In this document: piece after piece, positions 1,116-62,535 of the stretch
Layout: each line of letters starts with the position of its first letter
Numbering within the stretch: position 1 is the stretch's first letter
Assembly: GCA_030068145.1 (NCBI GenBank)
Contig: JAPJBO010000419.1
Coordinates: 124,001 to 188,000 of the forward strand
Direction: 5' to 3'
Source of the DNA: Diplonema papillatum
Taxonomy: Eukaryota > Euglenozoa > Diplonemea > Diplonemida > Diplonemidae
DNA: 64,000 nt
The notes under the pieces: generated by a model
Database searches by the model: none
What the model saw: only the letters and a program-made list of their open reading frames with translations
Told to the model about the DNA's origin: nothing
Translations under genes and position numbers: made by a program

Positions 1116-1837
1116 GCAAACGCAACGTTCTCAGAAACCGGCTTGTCGGCCTCAACGCGTGTCACACTCAGTGTTTAATGAGGAGAACGTTCCACCGCAT
1201 CGTTTTCTGTCTATTTCAGTGAGCTGTAGGCGACGTATTCCTGCAGTAGCACCTTTTCGTAGGCTTCGCTCAACCTTTTTAGTGCTAACAATCTTGCGGG
1301 TTGCCCTTCAATGTGTTGTGCAGGCTAAAAAGACGTAGGCAGCGTGTTTTGGTGGTTGATCAGAATTCCTTGCCTGAAGACACACAGGGTATATACAAGT
1401 GGGAAAACGATCACCCGGCACGCACAAAGCCGTTGTTTCGGCATGCGTCTCTTGCATGTGAAACTGTCCGGAGGGTTGCAGAATGAGCTCGCAAATGTGG
1501 GAACCTGGCAGTTCCAGGCAAGTCTCCGCAAAGGAGTGCTTCGGCAGCAGCACTTGACGCAAAGAAATCGAATTGATGTCTCGATCAGCCTCAGCAGCCG
1601 ACGATCGTGCCGGGGATCAGCTCGAAGACAGTTTGTTTGTACGTGCCGGGGGAGGATTGGCCTGCTAGTGCATGATAGTGAGTGAAATATGCTCGTTAGG
1701 TTAATCTTCTTCCAAACACGCTGCCAGCGTTCTCTTTGGTGTTTACGATACATTGCTACTACGAAAAAATCCGCTAGACGCAAAAGTGTCTCGGTCAGCC
1801 TCTCAGTCATCGGCACCAAAAACCGCACAGGAAGACT
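1116..1837. other. Unassigned, repeat-derived
   Basis: No supported gene. About 1330-1395 (GTGTTTTGGTGGTTGATCAG and following) recurs inverted at about 19.79-19.86 kb, so part is dispersed repeat. Short frames here are not distinguishable from chance. Confidence 0.4.
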
Positions 1838-1990
1838 GCATCAGTCCGAGTCGTCAGCTTCGTCTTCTGCACTCTCAAGCACCAACGCCAGGATTTTGAG
1901 CTGCCGCTTGCTTGATCCAGTCGATGGCCCCCGCCAGGTGCATGATGCCGGCTCCCTTCGCGTCCGTGTAGAACGCGTCAAAAAAAGTCC
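1838..1990 (-). pseudogene. Duplicated 3' end of the large gene's last exon
   Basis: Matches 2098-2245, the last coding part of the large minus-strand gene, including the KRQLKILALVLE...D stop-proximal segment. A 4-bp insertion near 1909 (cttg) shifts the frame, so only the final 20 or so codons are intact. It lies about 110 bp past the real stop codon. Seen directly by comparing the two segments. Confidence 0.75.
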
Positions 1991-2104
1991 GTTGGATGCA
2001 AAGAAAGCCAAGCATCGGTGTCTCGGTAAGGCCCTCTCAGCAGCCAGAACCGCGATCGGCACGAAATCCCGCGCCTAAAAAAACTGCGTTCAGTAGTAGC
2101 ATCA

Positions 2105-4016
2105 TCAGTCGGAGTCGCTAGCCTCGTCGTCTGCGTTCTCAAGCACCAACGCTAGGATTTTGAGCTGGCGCTTGATCCAGTCGATGGCCCCCGCCAGGTG
2201 CATGATGCCTGTTCCCTTCGTGTCGGTGTAGAACGCATCGACAATGTCTGCTTCGAAGGAGACCGCATTGACGCCGATGGCGGCGCAGAGGCGCCGAAAG
2301 ATGCCGACCAGCACGTGCCACTCGACCGTCTTCGGCTTCTCGCCCAAGTGTGCGGCGATGTGCCCTTCGAACACGGCCGCCGGCTCCCGCGAGAGCTTCC
2401 GGACTTTGGTGGCCCGCGACTGCGTGTCGAGGACGGTGGCGAACAGCACCCCGTGCGTGGTGGCGCACGGCGCGGCTTCGTACGGCTTCGACAGGAAGGT
2501 GAGCGAGTGCACTGCGTCTTCGACTCGCCCTACCAAGCGCTGCTGCGCCAGCTCGAGGAAGGGCGACGAGAAAAAGTGGTCGAAGAGCAGCGCGGACGCG
2601 GGGCCGTCGGCGACGCCTATCTCGTCCACGACGAGGTTGCAGAGGTGCAGCAGGTGCGGAAGGGTCAACTCCGGGAGAGGGGCGGCGCGGGTGATCCCGC
2701 TGGCGACCACAGCGGCGCCGAGGGGGATCGACCAGAAAAGCCGGGCGCGGTCCACGTCGGCTTTGCCGATGGGCGGCGGCAGCGACGAAGGCAGCAGCGG
2801 CTTGCTCGAGCCTGACGACTTCAACGAAAACGACATGCCGCGCCCGCTAGCGCCGAGGCCGGGCGAAGATGCGCTCAGCAGCAGCGTCAAGTCACACGTC
2901 GTCGAGTGCAACTTTTCCATGCTGTCCCGCTGGACCCCGCACGCGCTTTCGATGTGCGCGAACCCGGATCCCCAGTCCCACCGGGTCACCTTGCACCCAA
3001 ACCTAGCCTGGTCAGCGTCCCCTGGGCTTCCCAGCTCGCTGTTACCGGCAAGGTCGTCGTTGGCCTGTAGCGGCGGGACGTCCGCGTGGAACAGGTTGTA
3101 TGCGCAGCATGCCTCAACGAGAGCTTCGACCTGCGAATGGACGAAGAGGCCCCACACGTTTTCCGTAGGGCTGTCCGTGGAGAACGCCGGTATGGTAGCA
3201 TGGGAGTACCGGGGGGTGCTGTAGGCGAGGCAGGCCGGCGGCGCGCCGACGACGCGGCACAGCCGGTGCAGCACGTCGGCGGCGTAGGCCCACGGCTTCG
3301 CGGGCCCGCGAAGCAGCTGCGGCTGGACCCGGGTTGGGTCGACGTCGTGGAGGACGACAAGCCGCGACTTCCGCCCGCCGTCACCCCCCCGCGGCGGCAG
3401 CCCCGGGCTGCCTAGCGACGACGACGAACCCGCGTATCCCACTGGCGATGGTGAAGTGAGCAACGGGGAGTCGGCGTGGATGGGAGGGGCGTCGGGAGAC
3501 AGCAGGCGCGGGGGGGACTGCCGGTACGTAGCGGCGAGGCTCGCATCCGGGCCGGCGTCGAGGACCAGCAAATCGAAGCGGTTCGGCGTCTTTTTCGAGC
3601 GGGCGACGACGCACGGCTCGGTCGTTCCGTCCCACAAAACGACGTCGACGACTTCGCCGGGGGTGAAGCGCACGCCGGTGGTGATGATCCGGCGCTTCTT
3701 GCGCGCGGCCGAGGTCGGGGAGTTCAGGGGGGACCCCCGCGGGGTGGTTTGGATCATGGGCTTGATAGACGACCGCCGCGGCGCCAGGTGGATGGCCGAA
3801 GGCTTGCAGGCCGACGCCGGCCGCACGCCGGACGGCACGCCGCAGTAGTCGGAGCCAGAGTCGTGGTCCGAAAAGGTGCGGCGGTGGACGGGCGTCGCGA
3901 ACTGCTTCGACGAGAGCCCCTTTAGCGTCGCCTCCGCGTCCGAAGCCTCGTCGTCCGTCCAGTGACGCGACCGCCGGCGTTTCCCAACAGGGGACTTCTG
4001 GGTCGGACTGTTATCT
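2105..4016 (-). CDS. Large multi-exon gene, exon 3 (last)
   Basis: This terminal exon encodes residues of about 1721-2356 of the reconstructed protein and stops at TGA 2105-2107. The acceptor is CCGACAG ending at 4017. The exon contributes 1 nt to the split codon GA|A and then 637 codons including the stop, matching the phase left by exon 2. The start has a basic KRRRSRHW patch in an acidic stretch, then a compact segment GEVVDVVLWDGTTEPCVVA that could be a small beta-barrel (SH3/Tudor-like; guess). Helical blocks follow and an acidic tail ends ...DDEASDSD. No family recognised. Read alone, the open frame is cut by an in-frame stop just upstream of the acceptor, so it needs an upstream exon. 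Confidence 0.75.
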
Positions 4017-4228
4017 CTGTCGGTTTAGAAATTGGTGTGGCTGGTGGGTTGTATCCAAATCGCAAATACAGGACTTTTCCGTAGGAGGAGTTGGGTGGGT
4101 ACGACATTTTCTGCAAGTGTCAGACTACCCCACGCGAAGGCAGTTGGTTTCTTCAGGCAGATTGTCTCTCTCCAGCGAAGGTTGTGTGCTTTTAGGGGTT
4201 TTTTCCTCGTCTCCAACGGGGGGGGGGG

Positions 4229-4504
4229 TGACCCCCGCGGGGTGGTCTGGATCACAAGCTTGATGGACGACCTCCTCGGCGCCAGGTGGATGGCCGAAGG
4301 CTTGCAGGCCGACGCTGGCCGCGCGCCGGACGGCGCGCCGCAGTAGTCGTGGTACGAGAAGGTGCGGCGGTGGACGGGCGTCGCGAACTGCTTCGACGAG
4401 AGCCCCTTCAGCGTCGCGCCTCCGCGTCCGAAGCCTCGTCATCCGTCCAGTGACGCGACCGCCGGCGTTTCCCCACCGGGGACTTCTGGATCGGACTGTT
4501 GTCT
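4229..4504 (-). pseudogene. Duplicate of exon 3 start inside intron 2
   Basis: Nearly the same as 3727-4016, including its own acceptor (CCACCAG ending at 4505) and the KSPVGKRRRSRHW start. An extra 2 nt in the GCGCGCCTCC region breaks the frame soon after DEASDAEA. Splicing to this acceptor would truncate the protein. It is either a dead tandem duplicate or a poison exon. Confidence 0.75.
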
Positions 4505-4622
4505 CTGGTGGAGAAATTGGCTGCCAGGAGTTGGGTGGGTATCCTATTTACAGCAAGTGTCCGACCACCCCACCCGAGAGCAGTTGTTTTCTTCAGGCAG
4601 ATTGTCTGTACCGGCGCAATTT

Positions 4623-4797
4623 GATTTTTTTTTTTTTTTTTTTTTTTTGTATAAGCTGCTTTGTAGGAAATACTTGAGGAGGCTGCCAGCTGCAAAAGAT
4701 CAAAGGAGGTAAATGTGCCGTAGCCCACACGAAACACAGGTGAATCTGGGTTCAGTGGCGGGCGTAAGCGTTCAACAAAAAAGACCCATTTTGTTAG
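4623..4797 (-). repeat. Dsp-1 SINE-like copy, 5' truncated, with T/A tail
   Basis: Reverse copy of the family that ends in a ...CTTATACAAA tail. On the plus strand a run of about 26 T precedes GTATAAGCTGC. It breaks off after ACCCATTTTGT, so about the first third is missing. Confidence 0.75.
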
Positions 4798-43699: not shown

Positions 43700-43830
43700 A
43701 GCTGTTGAAGATCTACGCGCTAAACTTAAGCATATCACTCAGCGCAGGAAAAGAAAGCAACAGCGATGCTCCTAGTAACGGCAAGTGAACAGGGCAGAGC
43801 CCAAGCCTGAACCGGTTCTACGGATATCCG
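43700..43830 (+). rRNA. 28S rRNA 5'-region fragment (pseudo)
   Basis: GACCTCAG then CTAAACTTAAGCATATCACT, GGAGGAAAAGAA-like and CTAGTAACGGCAAGTGAACA match the conserved start of eukaryotic LSU rRNA. Surrounded by repeats; too short to be a functional gene. Confidence 0.7.
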
Positions 43831-44261
43831 GAATGTGGCGCAAGCTGTCTGTCACAAGCTCCATGGTCAGTTCAGGGTACCTGGTACTTCGGAATCTGAA
43901 GCGGGCGATGGGGCGATGGTGAGAGCCGGTGAGGTTGTGACGAGTGTGCGTGGCAACTGCGTGGGTTGCGCGGCCGTGGCGGACAGCAGTCAAAATGCCA
44001 TTCGCAGCCTGTGTTCCGCTAGGGCGCAGTTCCTATGGTTTACTGTGGGAAATGGAGCTTCTTCTTCATGGCTTGGAAACCGACCCACGACATAAGGAGA
44101 GAGAGAGAGACGAGGTAGAGTGCAGGGACCATCTCTCCGACATAAAGGTACATGACCTACTTGTTTTGGGAGATAGGCCCTATGCAATGTGATTGCCGGC
44201 TGCGTCACGTGGGCGCACCTGGTTCTGAAGAGAATAGTACGATGACTACTCAAGAAATACT

Positions 44262-44432
44262 ATGGTTTACTGTGGGAATTGAAGCAAAGCGCATGGCAGG
44301 ATGAGCGCCATCCCGAACCAACACCAGGAGAGTTTGGGATGAGGCGGGGTTGCAAGTAGACAGACACTCCGGCGTTACTGAATAGACCAAACTTAGCAGG
44401 ATCAAAGAATGTCAGTCTCACCTTCCTCATTC
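44262..44432 (+). repeat. Solo A repeat of the split-repeat retroelement
   Basis: Diverged match to the A2 repeat (reverse complement of 58890-59062), including GGCAGGATGAGC, ACCAACACCAG and AGCAGGATCAAAGAATGTCA. It lacks the spliced leader. A further start (TATGGTTTACTGTGGGAA) is at 44033. Confidence 0.75.
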
Positions 44433-44817
44433 TTTTGCACCGGACGAGTGTGATGATGCAGCAACAATTTCCTTTCATCGCTCTTCCTACAAGCAACCTT
44501 CGGCCCTTCATCCCACCGCAACTCAGCCGTTCCCTGCAGGTGACTTGTGTTGGTTTCATCGATCGTGCCACTGCTTCCGCATGCAGGCTCTATATCAAAT
44601 GGCCCACCACCCGACACATTTCAGAGCCCGAGTGTGTGGTGATCGGGCGCTTTTATAGCTCGGGGGGTAGTAATTGCAGGCTAATGTGAAATTCAAAGCC
44701 GTGGATTTTTTGCGCCCCCAGCTGTAAAACCGCACGTATGTCCATACTTTTTCAGGGGCTTTTTGTTGTTGTAGAGCTGCTGGGCCCGTATTGAGCCCTG
44801 CGCCTGTGTACCAAAAC
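44433..44817. other. Unassigned
   Basis: Follows the solo A repeat; no match found to the rest of the element. Confidence 0.35.
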
Positions 44818-46500: not shown

Positions 46501-46829
46501 GTCTATCGCAGTCTATCAGGAGGTGGACCGGCTTACAATACGCATTGCTGGTGTGCTGCCTCACCAGACCCCAGGAGTGAGTGTGTGTTCCCGCTCTGAC
46601 CCGATGGCGAACCCCGGAAATCTAATATCCAGCCCTGACCGACATATCAACGATAAACCCTGGCGTCCGTCGCACTTTTCCACCGGCTCTTGTGCACGGT
46701 TCATGAAAGCCGGTGAGACTGTAGGACCGGCAATTGTGCTCGTGCATGCGAGCTCGCGCATACGTGTCGTCCGATCTTTCTCGTTGTGCCAGCGAAGAGA
46801 AATAGCCTCGACACGTACTTAGTACGTTA

Positions 46830-46950
46830 GAAGCAATGGATGATATCTAAACCTGTCAATGAACACAATTGGTGGACAAGTCTGGTGCCAGCACCCGCGG
46901 TAATTCCAGCACCAATAGCGTATATTAATGCTGCTGCTGTTAAAAAGCTC
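46830..46950 (+). rRNA. 18S rRNA fragment (pseudo)
   Basis: ACCTGTCAATGA, CAATTGGTGGACAAGTCTGG, TGCCAGCACCCGCGGTAATT and AGCGTATATTAATGCTGCTG match the universal 530-loop region of SSU rRNA. Base changes at invariant sites (CACCCGCGG for CAGCCGCGG) mark a dead copy. Confidence 0.8.
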
Positions 46951-46985
46951 CGGTCGTCTTGAAGAAGGGTGGTGCGTTGGTCGCT

Positions 46986-47162
46986 TCATGACTCCATGAC
47001 TCCATGACTCCATGACTCCATGACTCCATGACTCCATGACTCCATGACTCCATGACTCCATGACTCCATGACTCCATGACTCCATGACTCCATGACTCCA
47101 TGACTCCATGACTCCATGACTCCATGACTCCATGACTTCATGACTTCATGACACCATGACTC
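46986..47162. repeat. 8-bp ATGACTCC tandem array, about 21 units
   Basis: Perfect until the last few units. Confidence 0.97.
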
Positions 47163-56631: not shown

Positions 56632-58565
56632 GTACCCAGTCTGTAACCACTGTAACCACTTGTAACCACTTGTAACCGGGTGTAACCAGTCTGTAACCGG
56701 GATGTAACCGCTGTAACCACTTGTAACCAGCATGTTGTAACCAGGGATGTAACCGCTGTAACCACTTGTAACCAGCATGTGACCACTGTAACCGGGTGTA
56801 ACCAGTCTGTAACCGCTGTAACCACTTATGTAACCAGTCTGTATCCGGGATGTAACCGCTGTAACCACTTGTAACCAGCATGTAACCGCTGTAACCGAGT
56901 GTAACCAGTCTGTAACCGGGATGTAACCGCTGTAACCACTTGTAACCACTGTAACCGAGTGTAACCAGTCTGTAACCGGGATGTAACCGCTGTAACCACT
57001 TGTAACCAGCATGTAACCACTGTAACCGAGTGTAACCAGTCTGTAACCGGGATGTAACCGCTGTAACCACTTGTAACCAGCATGTAACCACTGTAACCGA
57101 GTGTAACCAGTCTGTAACCGGGGTGTAACCGCTGTAACCACTTGTAACCAGCATGTAACCACTGTAACCGAGTGTAACCAGTCTGTAACCGGGATGTAAC
57201 CGCTGTAACCACTTGTAACCAGCATGTAACCACTGTAACCGAGTGTAACCAGTCTGTAACCGGGGTGTAACCGCTGTAAGCACTTGTAACCAGCATGTAA
57301 CCACTTGTAACCGCATGTAACCGCTGTAACCGAGTGTAACCAGTCTGTAACCGGGATGTAACCGCTGTAACCACTTGTAACCACTGTAACCGAGTGTAAC
57401 CAGTCTGTAACCGGGATGTAACCGCTGTAACCACTTGTAACCAGCATGTAACCACTGTAACCGAGTGTAACCAGTCTGTAACCGGGATGTAACCGCTGTA
57501 ACCACTTGTAACCAGCATGTAACCGCTGTAACCGAGTGTAACCAGTCTGTAACCGGGGTGTAACCGCTGTAACCACTTGTAACCAGCATGTAACCACTGT
57601 AACCGAGTGTAACCAGTCTGTAACCGGGATGTAACCGCTGTAACCACTTGTAACCAGCATGTAACCACTGTAACCGAGTGTAACCAGTCTGTAACCGGGA
57701 TGTAACCGCTGTAACCACTTGTAACCAGCATGTAACCACTGTAACCGAGTGTAACCAGTCTGTAACCGGGATGTAACCGCTGTAACCACTTGTAACCAGC
57801 ATGTAACCACTGTAACCGAGTGTAACCAGTCTGTAACCGGGATGTAACCGCTGTAACCACTTGTAACCAGCATGTAACCACTGTAACCGAGTGTAACCAG
57901 TCTGTAACCGGGATGTAACCGCTGTAACCACTTGTAACCAGCATGTAACCACTGTAACCGAGTGTAACCAGTCTGTAACCGGGATGTAACCGCTGTAACC
58001 ACTTGTAACCAGCATGTAACCACTGTAACCGAGTGTAACCAGTCTGTAACCGGGATGTAACCGCTGTAACCACTTGTAACCAGCATGTAACCACTGTAAC
58101 CGAGTGTAACCAGTCTGTAACCGGGATGTAACCGCTGTAACCACTTGTAACCAGCATGTAACCACTGTAACCGAGTGTAACCAGTCTGTAACCGGGATGT
58201 AACCGCTGTAACCACTTGTAACCAGCATGTAACCACTGTAACCGAGTGTAACCAGTCTGTAACCGGGATGTAACCGCTGTAACCACTTGTAACCAGCATG
58301 TAACCACTGTAACCGAGTGTAACCAGTCTGTAACCGGGATGTAACCGCTGTAACCACTTGTAACCAGCATGTAACCACTGTAACCGGGTGTAACCAGTCT
58401 GTAACCGGGATGTAACCGCTGTAACCACTTGTAACCAGCATGTAACCACTGTAACCGAGTGTAACCAGTCTGTAACCGGGATGTAACCGCTGTAACCACT
58501 TGTAACCAGCATGTAACCACTGTAACCGAGTGTAACCAGTCTGTAACCGGGGTGTACCGCTGTAA
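56632..58565. repeat. TGTAACC satellite, 71-bp higher-order units (left block)
   Basis: Seven variants of a 9-11 bp monomer ending TGTAACC form a 71-bp unit (GGGATG at 57768 and 57839). Fewer regular units near the left edge. Minus-strand frames stay open for over 600 codons because no monomer contains a stop; not genes. Confidence 0.97.
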
Positions 58566-58873
58566 GGAATTGTTGCTGGCTTCTTCTGGCATCATCGCAC
58601 TCGTTCTGAGGCGGGATCTGCAGTCGTTGTCTGGCGTTTCTCTGGCCGCACACACACTCTCTCTCTCGGCCTGGGCTCTTTTTTCCGCTTGCTCGGATCT
58701 GTTTCGTTGTGGGTCTCTCCCACTTGACGGGATCGTCCCGTTTCGCCCTGGCCACTCCAATCGAAAGAGAACGGTGAAAAACCAGTCAGGATGGAACTCA
58801 CATAAAGAACAAACGAAGGGGAAGAACACCGACCATGAGGCAAGCTATGATCGCCGCTGGGACGACGTCACGC
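58566..58873 (-). repeat. Split direct repeat B2
   Basis: 308 bp; offset from B1 exactly 497 bp at both ends. Confidence 0.92.
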
Positions 58874-59062
58874 GGGGGATGGAGGGTGGGAAAAAGAAAG
58901 AGGAAGGTGTGACTGACATTCTTTGATCCTGCTGGGTCTTTTAGTTTTGCCAGAGTGACTGTCTACTTGAAACCCCGCCTCCTCCCAAAACTCTTCTGGT
59001 GTTGGTTTGGGTGGGTGCTCATCCTGCCATGCGCTTTGCTCCAATTCCCACGGTAAACCACA
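58874..59062 (-). repeat. Split direct repeat A2, with intact trans-splice acceptor
   Basis: Minus strand: CAAAACTAAAAGACCCAGCAG then GATCAAAGAATG; the AG at 58929-58930 is where A1 instead carries the leader. Confidence 0.88.
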
Positions 59063-59370
59063 GGAATTGTTGCTGGCTTCTTCTGGCATCATCGCACTCG
59101 TTCTGAGGCGGGATCTGCAGTCGTTGTCTGGCGTTTCTCTGGCCGCACACACACTCTCTCTCTCGGCCTGGGCTCTTTTTTCCGCTTGCTCGGATCTGTT
59201 TCGTTGTGGGTCTCTCCCACTTGACGGGATCGTCCCGTTTCGCCCTGGCCACTCCAATCGAAAGAGAACGGTGAAAAACCAGTCAGGATGGAACTCACAT
59301 AAAGAACAAACGAAGGGGAAGAACACCGACCATGAGGCAAGCTATGATCGCCGCTGGGACGACGTCACGC
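59063..59370 (-). repeat. Split direct repeat B1
   Basis: Includes the stop codon of the ORF (TAG at 59342-59344). Confidence 0.92.
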
Positions 59371-62287
59371 CACCTGCCCCCCCGCGAGTAAAGAATGCCC
59401 TCACCGCAAGTACAAGTCGCTGTCGATCCTCTTCCGAGGCGTCAGCAGCAAGGGCGACTCTTGAAGGGACATCGGCCGGGTTCTCCTTCGTGCTGATCCA
59501 CGAGATGGACCAGGAACATTTCAAATCCCGTAGTCGAGTCAACGCGTGCACAACTGCGTCATTCAATGATTTGTTCAGCATGCAGTTCTTCTTTCGTGCC
59601 ACCCCGACTACGGTAGTGTTGTCGACATGAACGTCGACTGCGCTACCTAATACTGACGGGGGTAGCGCATCCACGGCTCTCTTCAGAGCCAGTGCTTCTA
59701 GCGTGTTGATGTGGTGCCGAGCTTCCTGCTCGGTCCATGTGCCACCCAACACGGTCAGCTCTGCTGTCTGCCGGTCAACCAGGACAGCGCCCCACCCCAG
59801 CAAGGAAGCGTCCACGTAGACCGCGTACGGACGGTTCGTGGACGGACGCGTGAACCTTCTGTTCACATCGACAGAATCAACCCACGATCGCAAATCTCTC
59901 CGTACGGAGGCCGGCACAAGCACAGTCTCTGATTGGGTGCGGGTCCCCTTGTTGAGGCCGTTCGTTATCCGTCGCAAGAACTTGACGGCGAACCAGAACG
60001 AGCCGGGGAACGCGTTCACGACTGCGCTCGCATGGAGCAGGCGACCGCCGAGCGATTCTAAATCGCCGGCGGTGGGGCTAGACAAATCCACGGCCCGGAT
60101 CTTTTCGATCAGACGAGCCGCAGGAGAGACGGTCTTCCGACCGTGGTCAAAAGTGACCCCTATAAAATCGTAGCCCGAGGAAGCGTCGTTGCTATCCTCG
60201 GGCTTCCAAGAAGCATGGACCCGTGCGGCCAGCCGATCAAGTTCCTCGGTCTGGCAGAGCACTGCGGCACGGGACCCACTTATACGAATGTTGTCCACCC
60301 AGGCATGGACTGTTACCCCGTCGGCCGTGAATTCAGGCCCAACGAAGTCTGGGTGACTTGCTAACGTTGCTGTTAGCGTGTGCATCAGCTCTGGTGCACA
60401 CGAGTGTCCCATCGGCAGCCTATTTAGGACGTAGGCATTGCCTTGTTCATCGAGGAAACCGAAGTTCTTTCGAGCCTCCTCCGGGACTTCGACTTGATAA
60501 AAGCCACAACGCAAATCACGCGTTGTGGCGCACTCGGACTCGACTACGTCGAGATACCCGGAGACGTGGCCCAATGGTACCTGAGCCACGTAGCCTTGGC
60601 GGCTCAGCAAGTCGTTAGCCTCCTGCGTCCACAGAATGAACCGTTGGCGCAGGCGGCCCGCCTTGTCTTCCACAACCGTAAAAGGCACGTTGCGGAAAGT
60701 ACCCGGCGTGTCGGAAGGCGACGCGATGCCAAGCCTGACGAGCTCAGACGCGTGGGAGTGCATGAGGTGACTCCTCCTCTGCTGGCCCTCGGAAGAGTTT
60801 CCTTCTTTCGCGCCACGAACGGGGGAAAACGTGGCGTTCCAGACCGAGTCAAATCTGACGCGTACGTCAGGTTTCATCCTGAGCCGGAGCGCCTCCGTGT
60901 CCATGGCCGGCACCGCCGCCACGTGGAGAGGTGCCTCCTTTTCCGCCTGCGACTGTGGAAGACGCGTGTTATGCGCACGTCGGGTAAAGCCGTGGACCCG
61001 ACGGCCCACAACGTCGCTCAGCGGAGCCAGATCATCCCCTACGTGCGGCGGCAATGCTGCAAACCCAGAGGCGGGCACGGCTGGCGGAGCGGGTAACTCT
61101 TCGGCGGGCAGCAGATCTGCCACCCTGTACTCCGGAACGCTCTGAAGCGCGGAAGTCATGGGGAAAAACCCCCCTGGAGAAGGCGCTCCTCCTGCAAAGG
61201 CCGGCACATTCAAAGCATTCAGGGAAGAATTAAAAGGAGCGCCGGCCTCCCACATACCAAAAATAGAAGGGGCGAACCCCGTGACACCTAGCGGTGCCAT
61301 CCCTGGTTGCACAGGGGTTGGCAGCGAAAAAGGGCCTAGCCCATCTACCACCCTGGGTGCCATCCCGAGGGCAGGACTCCACTCACCCACCGCGAAACTT
61401 CTCGCCCCCAAAAGGTCCTCTTCCGGGCCGGGTCGCAGCGTACCGTCTGAGCACGCTACGTGTTCCCCTGACGGGAAATCGCCAACCGGACCGGGTCGCT
61501 GCGCATCGGGGCATGAGTTGTCACACCCAACACCACCGCTGTGGCCGATGTCATGCGCCGCGTAACCGCAGGTCGTTGCGCCTGCGGGGCCTCGCGCTGC
61601 GTCGCTCTGCGAACCTGAATCCGCGCTGAGTCGCTGCGCTAAGGGTCCCCCTGCATTCGGGGAAGTGCGGGCTGTGGCACGGGTGTCAGACGAAGAGGCA
61701 GTGCCTCGCTGGTGTTCGTCAATGACCATTCCCGTGGGGTTGGTTGACTGGTTGTCGGTTGGTCGGGGAGGGAGGAGGGGAGCGTTCGGAAGGTCGGGCT
61801 GCCGCGGAGGCGTCACCGCTTCGCCCTGGTCGCGCTTGCGACGGCGCCGAACCGCGGGAGGGATACGCCTCCTCCGCCTGCGCGGCCTCTCCTCGGAAGG
61901 CGGTGCCCCGCTGACCGACTGGCGGCGCTCCCACCAGAGCCCAGCCGCCGCCCTGTCCAGCGCGTCCTCGCTCTCCAGCTGCAATTGCATCTGGAACTCC
62001 TTCCGCGAGAACCCCTCGCGGGCGCACACGAACTCGATGCGCAGTTCCCGCAGCAACAGCTCTCCCAACGACACGAACTGACGGCGACCACGCCACCCCT
62101 CGAGCGACTCTGCGACGTAGAGCCACTCCCGCAAGGGCTCGAACCGACTCTCCAACGCGCACACGCAGTCGGACCCGAACGCGTGCCCCGGAACAACATA
62201 CTCGAGCTGGAGCTCGAGGATCACGTCCTCGGCGCGCTGACCGCACCCGAGGTCCCGCCACACATCGCTCGTCCTCCGGTCTCTCAT
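59342..62287 (-). CDS. Gag-like, reverse transcriptase and RNase H polyprotein, 981 aa
   Basis: ATG at 62287. Residues 1-130: charged, gag-like. About 130-160: Arg-rich (RPRRRRRRIPP). To about 470: Pro/Gly-rich linker. RT about 500-720: TRDLRCGFYQVEV with Asp591, LNRLPMGHSCAPELMH, and the catalytic box HAWVDNIRISG (Asp665) where YxDD would be expected; the second Asp is Asn666. RNase H about 820-945: YVDAS (D826), NTLEALALK (E864), VDNTTVV (D889), NPADVPSR (D939), a complete DEDD set. The chain ends soon after with no tyrosine recombinase. The ORF is unbroken, so the copy is young. A 16-codon upstream ORF (62410-62360) lies between leader and start. Confidence 0.88.
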   Translation of the reverse strand: MRDRRTSDVWRDLGCGQRAEDVILELQLEYVVPGHAFGSDCVCALESRFEPLREWLYVAESLEGWRGRRQFVSLGELLLRELRIEFVCAREGFSRKEFQMQLQLESEDALDRAAAGLWWERRQSVSGAPPSEERPRRRRRRIPPAVRRRRKRDQGEAVTPPRQPDLPNAPLLPPRPTDNQSTNPTGMVIDEHQRGTASSSDTRATARTSPNAGGPLAQRLSADSGSQSDAARGPAGATTCGYAAHDIGHSGGVGCDNSCPDAQRPGPVGDFPSGEHVACSDGTLRPGPEEDLLGARSFAVGEWSPALGMAPRVVDGLGPFSLPTPVQPGMAPLGVTGFAPSIFGMWEAGAPFNSSLNALNVPAFAGGAPSPGGFFPMTSALQSVPEYRVADLLPAEELPAPPAVPASGFAALPPHVGDDLAPLSDVVGRRVHGFTRRAHNTRLPQSQAEKEAPLHVAAVPAMDTEALRLRMKPDVRVRFDSVWNATFSPVRGAKEGNSSEGQQRRSHLMHSHASELVRLGIASPSDTPGTFRNVPFTVVEDKAGRLRQRFILWTQEANDLLSRQGYVAQVPLGHVSGYLDVVESECATTRDLRCGFYQVEVPEEARKNFGFLDEQGNAYVLNRLPMGHSCAPELMHTLTATLASHPDFVGPEFTADGVTVHAWVDNIRISGSRAAVLCQTEELDRLAARVHASWKPEDSNDASSGYDFIGVTFDHGRKTVSPAARLIEKIRAVDLSSPTAGDLESLGGRLLHASAVVNAFPGSFWFAVKFLRRITNGLNKGTRTQSETVLVPASVRRDLRSWVDSVDVNRRFTRPSTNRPYAVYVDASLLGWGAVLVDRQTAELTVLGGTWTEQEARHHINTLEALALKRAVDALPPSVLGSAVDVHVDNTTVVGVARKKNCMLNKSLNDAVVHALTRLRDLKCSWSISWISTKENPADVPSRVALAADASEEDRQRLVLAVRAFFTRGGAGGVTSSQRRS

Positions 62288-62359
62288 CCCGACATCAGCG
62301 AAAAAAGAGAAAAGGGAAGCGTGTCGCGTGTTTTCTCGTGTCGTGGGTGTTCGTGTGCT

Positions 62360-62410
62360 TTACCGAAAAAGGAGGTAGAGAAAAAAGAAAGAGGAAGGTG
62401 TGACTGACAT
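62360..62410 (-). CDS. Short upstream ORF, 16 aa
   Basis: MSVTPSSFFFLYLLFR, first ATG after the leader. Probably a leader-region uORF or chance. Confidence 0.3.
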   Translation of the reverse strand: MSVTPSSFFFLYLLFR

Positions 62411-62535
62411 TCTTTGATCCAATAAAGTACAGAAACTGTAGCTTTTAAATCGTTGGTAGAAACTCTTCTGGTGTTGGTTTGGGTGGGTGCTCATCCTGCC
62501 ATGCGCTTTGCTCCAATTCCCACGGTAAACCACAG
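62383..62535 (-). repeat. Split direct repeat A1, hybrid with spliced leader
   Basis: Outer part (62460-62535) matches A2 up to AGAGTTT; inner part (62383-62419) matches A2 from GATCAAAG. Between them the leader replaces the A2 sequence upstream of the acceptor. Confidence 0.9.
62420..62457 (-). other. Spliced leader sequence embedded in DNA
   Basis: Minus strand begins ACCAACGATTTAAAAGCT and ends ACAGTTTCTGTACTTTATTG. The last 20 nt differ from the trypanosome leader (from memory) at one base, and the whole agrees with the diplonemid leader as I recall it, minus the first base. Joined to GATCAAAG, which follows an AG acceptor in A2. It is not followed by a GT, so this is not a leader RNA gene but the product of a spliced RNA. 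Confidence 0.85.

Follow-up and report, generated by a model that had tools for sequence, protein, structure and literature searches.

Organization of the element

The window, meaning the whole 64,000-nt stretch of the Diplonema papillatum genome analysed here (C419:124001-188000; the genome examined comprises 271 Mb in 2,910 contigs), carries on its minus strand a whole element at 58567-62535 with the order A1-ORF-B-A2-B, inserted in a minisatellite of TGTAACC units. All of its parts are on the minus strand. A1 begins with an outer half (62460-62535) that has the same letters as the outer 76 nt of A2, followed by an extra CT dinucleotide (62458-62459), a segment corresponding to nucleotides 2-39 of the host spliced leader (SL; 62420-62457), and an inner part (62382-62419) that begins GATCAAAG, lies downstream of a putative trans-splice acceptor and is identical between A1 and A2 over 38 nt. 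The 981-aa ORF, which gives reverse transcriptase-like and RNase H signals, occupies 59342-62287, an inner copy of repeat B (307 nt) lies at 59064-59370, and the complete A2 repeat spans 58891-59063. The outer copy of B (58567-58873) forms the 3' end of the element and differs from the inner copy at none of its 307 nt. A2 includes 59 nt that are missing from A1, placed by alignment offsets at 58929-58987 and with CCCAGCAG as their last letters; the AG|CAG| of A2 (58929-58933) holds two acceptor positions three bases apart, which match the joins of the SL copies described below.

The 981-aa ORF matches the Pfam model RT_RNaseH above the cut-off (2.2e-07), while the RVT_1 match (0.2) is below it, so that the reverse transcriptase itself is weakly indicated. 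Pfam models, scanned up to E=10, revealed no tyrosine recombinase in the ORF, although a diverged recombinase domain may be present, or a recombinase may act in trans. A search of solved structures with the ORF gave no matches. A similar single long ORF, of 979 aa, is found in a relative on C22; in the relative L064 the other ORFs of at least 200 aa within the element are overlapping frames, none longer than 283 aa.

The split direct repeats A1-ORF-B1-A2-B2 of the window element (A, 76 plus 38 nt; B, 307 nt, identical) are found more widely, the order A1-ORF-B-A2-B being seen at seven of ten loci with an intact A1. The remaining three are L071, which lacks the outer B end, L073, which has no B end in its stretch, and L074, which reads A-ORF-B. 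We note that the L074 copy (1159-4650) is near-identical, is without A2 and the outer B, and ends in (CTA)n; it could be a product of recombination or transfer.

The family resides in tandem arrays, and the left flank of young copies is (CTA)n in eight of 12 cases and another minisatellite in three, with L068 unclear. Where it can be judged, target-site duplication is absent: joins are clean by eye at C165 and C236, and when the flanks of the window element are joined the central 16 nt are present once in the array, at 57273, the full 28-nt join being absent from the array. The (CTA)n sites are uninformative for duplication, and at C462 the 3' end is truncated and a few target bases recur. None of the array-inserted copies (L061, L065-L075, L079, L082 and L083) has a target-site duplication where this can be judged.

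Other parts of the window hold related sequences on the plus strand. Two outer-A-like starts are seen at 44034-44058 and approximately 44260-44480, the second being a short, SIRE-like A-B copy with the acceptor TTAGCAG|GATCAAAGAATG. A 28S rRNA fragment lies upstream of them at 43716-43795, and its position suggests that the 28S pieces scattered through this genome may move together with A-type ends. At 46707-46991 the full-length eukaryotic SSU rRNA model matches within 285 nt, probably reflecting a fragmentary or deleted copy.

A spliced leader within the A1 repeat

Comparison of A1 and A2 on the minus strand, from their starts at 62535 and 59063, shows that they are identical for 76 nt (62535-62460 in A1). 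A1 then has 40 nt (62459-62420), consisting of CT and a 38-nt segment, where A2 has 59 nt with a terminal CAG, and both repeats resume with GATCAAAG and agree for 38 further nt (62419-62382 in A1). The 38-nt segment is an exact match to nucleotides 2-39 of the 39-nt SL exon, for which we used as reference a gene in the tandem SL RNA array on C1335, in which GTACTTTAAC follows the exon. The portions of PMC10161547 available to us describe a 39-bp SL exon and tandemly repeated SL RNA genes in this species.

A chance match is ruled out. An SL 34-mer, allowing up to three mismatches, occurs once in the window and in none of 100 shuffled sequences; genome-wide it occurs at 623 places, and the reversed-pattern control at none. 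As a marker of the SL RNA intron, the start GTATG was discarded, since it is found at only two places and the array gene that we read has GTACTTT.

An earlier reading of this DNA from its sequence alone had placed a 38-nt leader at 62420-62457, between two matching sides of A1. The coordinates and the length prove correct by the A1/A2 comparison, and the segment does match the exon of the host SL RNA gene. The A repeat, however, extends further, to 62382. That reading had also regarded the leader as inserted; the SL is indeed present, but it replaces the 59 nt of A2-type sequence and is not a simple insertion. A1 of the window accordingly lacks the 59 nt upstream of the acceptor, the SL occupying their place. 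Because the 59 nt in A2 end with CCCAGCAG directly before GATCAAAG, the leader occupies the very position at which a 3' splice acceptor would receive it. A polypyrimidine tract is usual at trypanosomatid acceptors; by eye, no clear tract is evident in the 59 nt preceding this one.

Sister copies without the leader

Twelve A1 places of the same young subfamily as the window element retain CAG|GATC and the A1-specific flank and have no SL, and in ten of these (L002-L011) A1 was read directly. Over the 3,048 nt between the acceptor and B the comparison covered 15 fetched loci, 12 of which, including the window's own stretch, hold the window subfamily; all 12 members are 99.93-100% identical over this length, and the copy on C11, which has an intact A1, is 100% identical to the window copy across it. 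The segment is therefore not shared by all A1 copies, as it would be if it were ancestral: the SL is new in the window copy.

The first 139 nt of A1 and A2 are the same in seven of eight intact-A1 elements that have both repeats within the fetched stretch, and the eighth has one mismatch. We also note that the element on C642 (L061, 1616 and 5106) has a private GATT both in A1, after the SL, and in A2, as if one had been copied from the other.

Leader junctions across the family

We searched the genome for the leader end followed, after a gap of at most 20 nt, by an exact match to the inner A of this element family, a design that more distant joins or diverged copies escape. The SL was found beside the inner A at 15 places, and the reversed control gave no matches. 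All junctions were read. The SL is joined to GATC, GATT or GAGC in 12 of them and to CAGGAGC in the other three. At the join site the sequence of unspliced relatives is CCAGCAGGAGC, CCAGCAGGATC (C642 having GATT) or, for one variant, CCAACAGGATC, from which it follows that every one of the 15 joins lies directly after an AG. In the three CAGGAGC joins the AG used lies three bases farther upstream, as at a tandem acceptor. In no case is SL RNA intron present: at all 15 places found the joined leader lies without it at the 3' splice acceptor. Among these places the window and C642 belong to the young subfamily, and the stretches at C533 and C1036 are too short downstream to assign.

The exact run of leader kept is 38 nt at seven places, 35 nt at two, 34 nt at three, 25 nt at one and 20 nt at two; a complete 39-nt leader is found at none of the 15. 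Two proposals of the sequence-only reading are supported by these junctions, namely that trans-splicing takes place within the terminal repeat, since all 15 SL copies are joined after the AG of unspliced relatives, and that the leader is copied up to its penultimate base, 38 of 39 nt being the longest run kept.

At ten of the 15 places the copy starts at the leader or a shortened leader, abutting DNA that is not A. Four of these SL-started copies are in CTA arrays (C642, C22 and two on C13); of the other six, C230, C236, C1036 and C1224 are in tandem arrays by eye, C1437 possibly so, and C167 is not. The remaining five places, of four kinds, are hybrids in which A sequence precedes the leader. 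In the window A breaks off 59 nt short of the acceptor, and the leader comes after a CT, with no evident shared sequence. At C201 and C1880 A runs to AACAAAA and then into the SL, with a 2-nt overlap by eye; these two do not differ at any of 106 nt and could represent a single locus present in two contigs. A passes its own acceptor at C461, as far as GAGCAA, before the SL (2-nt overlap, by eye), and likewise at C533, as far as CACACC (3-nt overlap, by script). Because their breakpoints differ and their upstream A variants are different, we take the hybrids as separate events. A jump of the cDNA end to A2 had been proposed for the window; three more kinds of hybrid with other breakpoints speak for a jump, albeit with a donor that could be either A2 or an unspliced A1, as both have the same sequence.

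The form CAGGAKCAAAG... is present at 419 places, which include A1, A2, short copies and the SL|CAGGAGC places. Set against these 419 CAG|GAKC places, the 15 SL copies suggest that unspliced RNA may be the source of most insertions and that the leader may have no necessary part in the replication cycle.

The bases at the leader start

The CT before the SL is also seen at C230 and C236. At C236 a right end, AATTC then TGTGATAGACTGTGA, lies 3.6 kb downstream and, being the only match in the genome, was taken as that of the same element; its flanks join to a native array unit without CT, so that the CT is part of the insert (one C being ambiguous), and CT as target sequence at C236 was rejected on the same ground. 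A search of the genome for the right end of the C230 element gave no matches. Among SL places of all kinds, the first 100 among the matches listed, which by design exclude T at -3 and A at -1, show C, T and G before ACCAACG in 53, 36 and 11 cases, and CC and CT as the two preceding bases in 33 and 17. With CT ahead of the leader in 17 of 100 listed places, it may mean little. The dinucleotide had earlier been taken as a substitute for the modified cap-side base; it is present, but it need not have that origin, given its occurrence at C230, C236 and the 17 listed places. Possible sources are a terminal addition by reverse transcriptase or a short end shared with the element start, CTGTGG.

The first base of the leader is missing at all 15 family places. 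Genome-wide, AACCAACG... is found at 303 places, of which 236 have the full SL followed by GT and are mostly SL RNA genes. In the remaining tally of the first base, A stands at 67 places versus another base at 184, or roughly 27% A, a rough figure in that the 184 are unsorted by following sequence and A is undercounted, retrocopies with A and a following GT being hidden among the 236. In trypanosomatids the first cap-side A is hypermodified, and a modification of this kind would fit the missing first base here.

Other repeat families in this genome also seem to have the SL at their 5' edge. Many of the 623 SL places are beyond the SL RNA genes, and in 10 of 30 sampled (L031-L060) the sequence directly after the SL has the same start, GCTGCTC.

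A model for the origin of the leader, and its alternatives

The 15 AG-joined SL copies, together with the intact sisters, indicate that the RNA of the element was trans-spliced inside its terminal repeat and that the cDNA sometimes kept the leader. We consider it quite probable, on the pattern of copies in this genome, that this is a split-direct-repeat retroelement whose A repeat holds a host-type acceptor, and that its SL-capped RNA is copied and the outer end sometimes regained by a switch. Judging from the DNA junctions, the host SL would be added to the element RNA at AG|GATCAAAG in A1, with loss of the outer half of A1. Reverse transcription would then proceed through the leader to its second base, as the regularity of the copies suggests, with the cap as the presumed cause of the stop. 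The SL-ended cDNA would sometimes be inserted unchanged; elsewhere, including in the window, its end would switch to an outer A, either of A2 or of an unspliced A1, by which the outer end is regained. Such template switching would account for the hybrids, with 2-3 nt of shared sequence in three of the four kinds. In most cases no trace of the leader would remain, whether through copying of unspliced RNA or through strand transfer within the 38 nt of inner A common to both repeats, a stretch that would then play the part of an LTR element's R region. The part of A2 as donor of the outer half is an inference, in that A2 and an unspliced A1 carry the same letters.

The most serious alternative, to which we give somewhat less than an even chance, is that a second element RNA, left unspliced, supplied the outer A half from its 5' end in place of A2. 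Transcription would begin at CTGTGG, a normal A1 arising from unspliced transcripts and SL ends from spliced ones, and A2 would be unnecessary. This would explain the exact end at CTGTGG in the intact copies and in the window hybrid, where an A2 template would continue into B, and it agrees with the great excess of intact forms over SL forms; yet it leaves the retention of the B-A2-B arrangement unexplained. The identity of A1 and A2 over 139 nt in seven of eight elements would follow from copying of one repeat from the other, but equally from the youth of the copies. It is improbable, by our estimate, that a normal element was already resident in the array and had its A1 converted by an SL-ended cDNA, by homology on the inner side and end-joining on the outer side. 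The middle 16 nt of the flank join agree with an element that went in whole and cleanly, and the outer junction consists of CT with no shared sequence, as such a conversion would have it, but a second event at one site is required, and likewise for each of the three other kinds of hybrid.

An assembly chimera, or an SL retrocopy that landed in A1 by chance, has little to recommend it beyond the ease with which repeats misassemble and the 623 genomic SL copies (up to three mismatches), and we rate it very improbable: all 15 family copies join after an AG and all are without the first SL base, and in the window the replacement of the 59 nt stops precisely at the AG. That the SL is an old shared part of A1, such as a promoter acquired once, we regard as close to negligible. 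We found no point in its support, it is contradicted by the 12 intact A1 places of the subfamily and by the C11 copy identical over 3,048 nt, and an ancestral SL in A1 was rejected on the evidence of those 12 places.

A bolder extension of the trans-splicing model is that trans-splicing is built into the cycle, with A serving both as acceptor and as R-like region. SL-capped RNA would be the usual genomic RNA, A2 would restore the outer A in every cycle, and the 15 SL copies would be failures of that step. We think this unlikely, but were it true, the split direct repeats of euglenozoan elements would exist so that the elements outlast the removal of their 5' end by trans-splicing, and no encoded tyrosine recombinase would be needed for insertion into tandem arrays.

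In split-direct-repeat elements the regaining of complete ends has been argued from structure. The leader is a natural mark of an RNA 5' end that persists in DNA, and would record the site at which the RNA was cut and joined, the extent of reverse transcription, and the point from which the cDNA continued. Such a lasting mark opens the restoration of the repeats to testing in a free-living protist, and the missing first base in the family copies hints that a genome can record a cap-side modification. The main support for the model comes from the 15 junctions and the identical sister copy without the leader.

Comparison with known systems

According to the available portions of PMC6681497 and PMC12278014, VIPER and TATE of kinetoplastids have the order A1-ORFs-B1-A2-B2, encode RT/RNase H and show no target-site duplication. 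The present element resembles VIPER, TATE, Ngaro and PAT in its split-repeat order and its RT/RNase H signals, and VIPER and TATE in its lack of target-site duplication. It differs from these elements in that they encode a tyrosine recombinase, while a single 981-aa ORF with RT/RNase H signals alone is found here, and we note that the same portions of PMC6681497 report weak tyrosine recombinase signals for VIPER itself. The sequence-only reading had called the element Ngaro/VIPER-type; the repeat order fits, but as no tyrosine recombinase was detected in the ORF we do not file it as VIPER/Ngaro despite its repeat anatomy. SIRE, as described in the accessible parts of the literature, is a short A2-B2 derivative, and short A-B copies exist in the present family.

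The available portions of PMC6681497 and PMC12278014 make no mention of an SL inside element copies, and the SIRE/VIPER passages of PMC2696322 and PMC4006747 contain nothing on trans-splicing in SIRE. A literature search, with most subscription papers and all supplements outside its coverage, likewise returned no report of a spliced leader in a retroelement terminal repeat, and nothing on SL and retrotransposon template switching or on SIRE as a trans-splicing acceptor.

The closest parallels come from other settings in which leaders or their genes meet reverse transcription. Within the same genome, the SL-tagged 5' edges of other repeats share with this family an SL that borders repeated sequence. 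Dinoflagellate retrogenes have SL relicts that arose by reverse transcription of trans-spliced mRNA, as the accessible text of PMC6050394 describes, and in both cases the leader would have been brought into the genome by reverse transcription of trans-spliced RNA; those relicts lie upstream of host coding sequence, whereas here the leader is in the terminal repeat of an element that has normal sisters and hybrids suggesting a jump. The SLACS, CZAR and CRE retroelements insert into SL RNA genes, as stated in the available portions of PMC12278014. They are likewise euglenozoan retroelements linked to the SL, but in the present family it is the processed SL, without SL RNA intron, that is found joined to the element's own acceptor.
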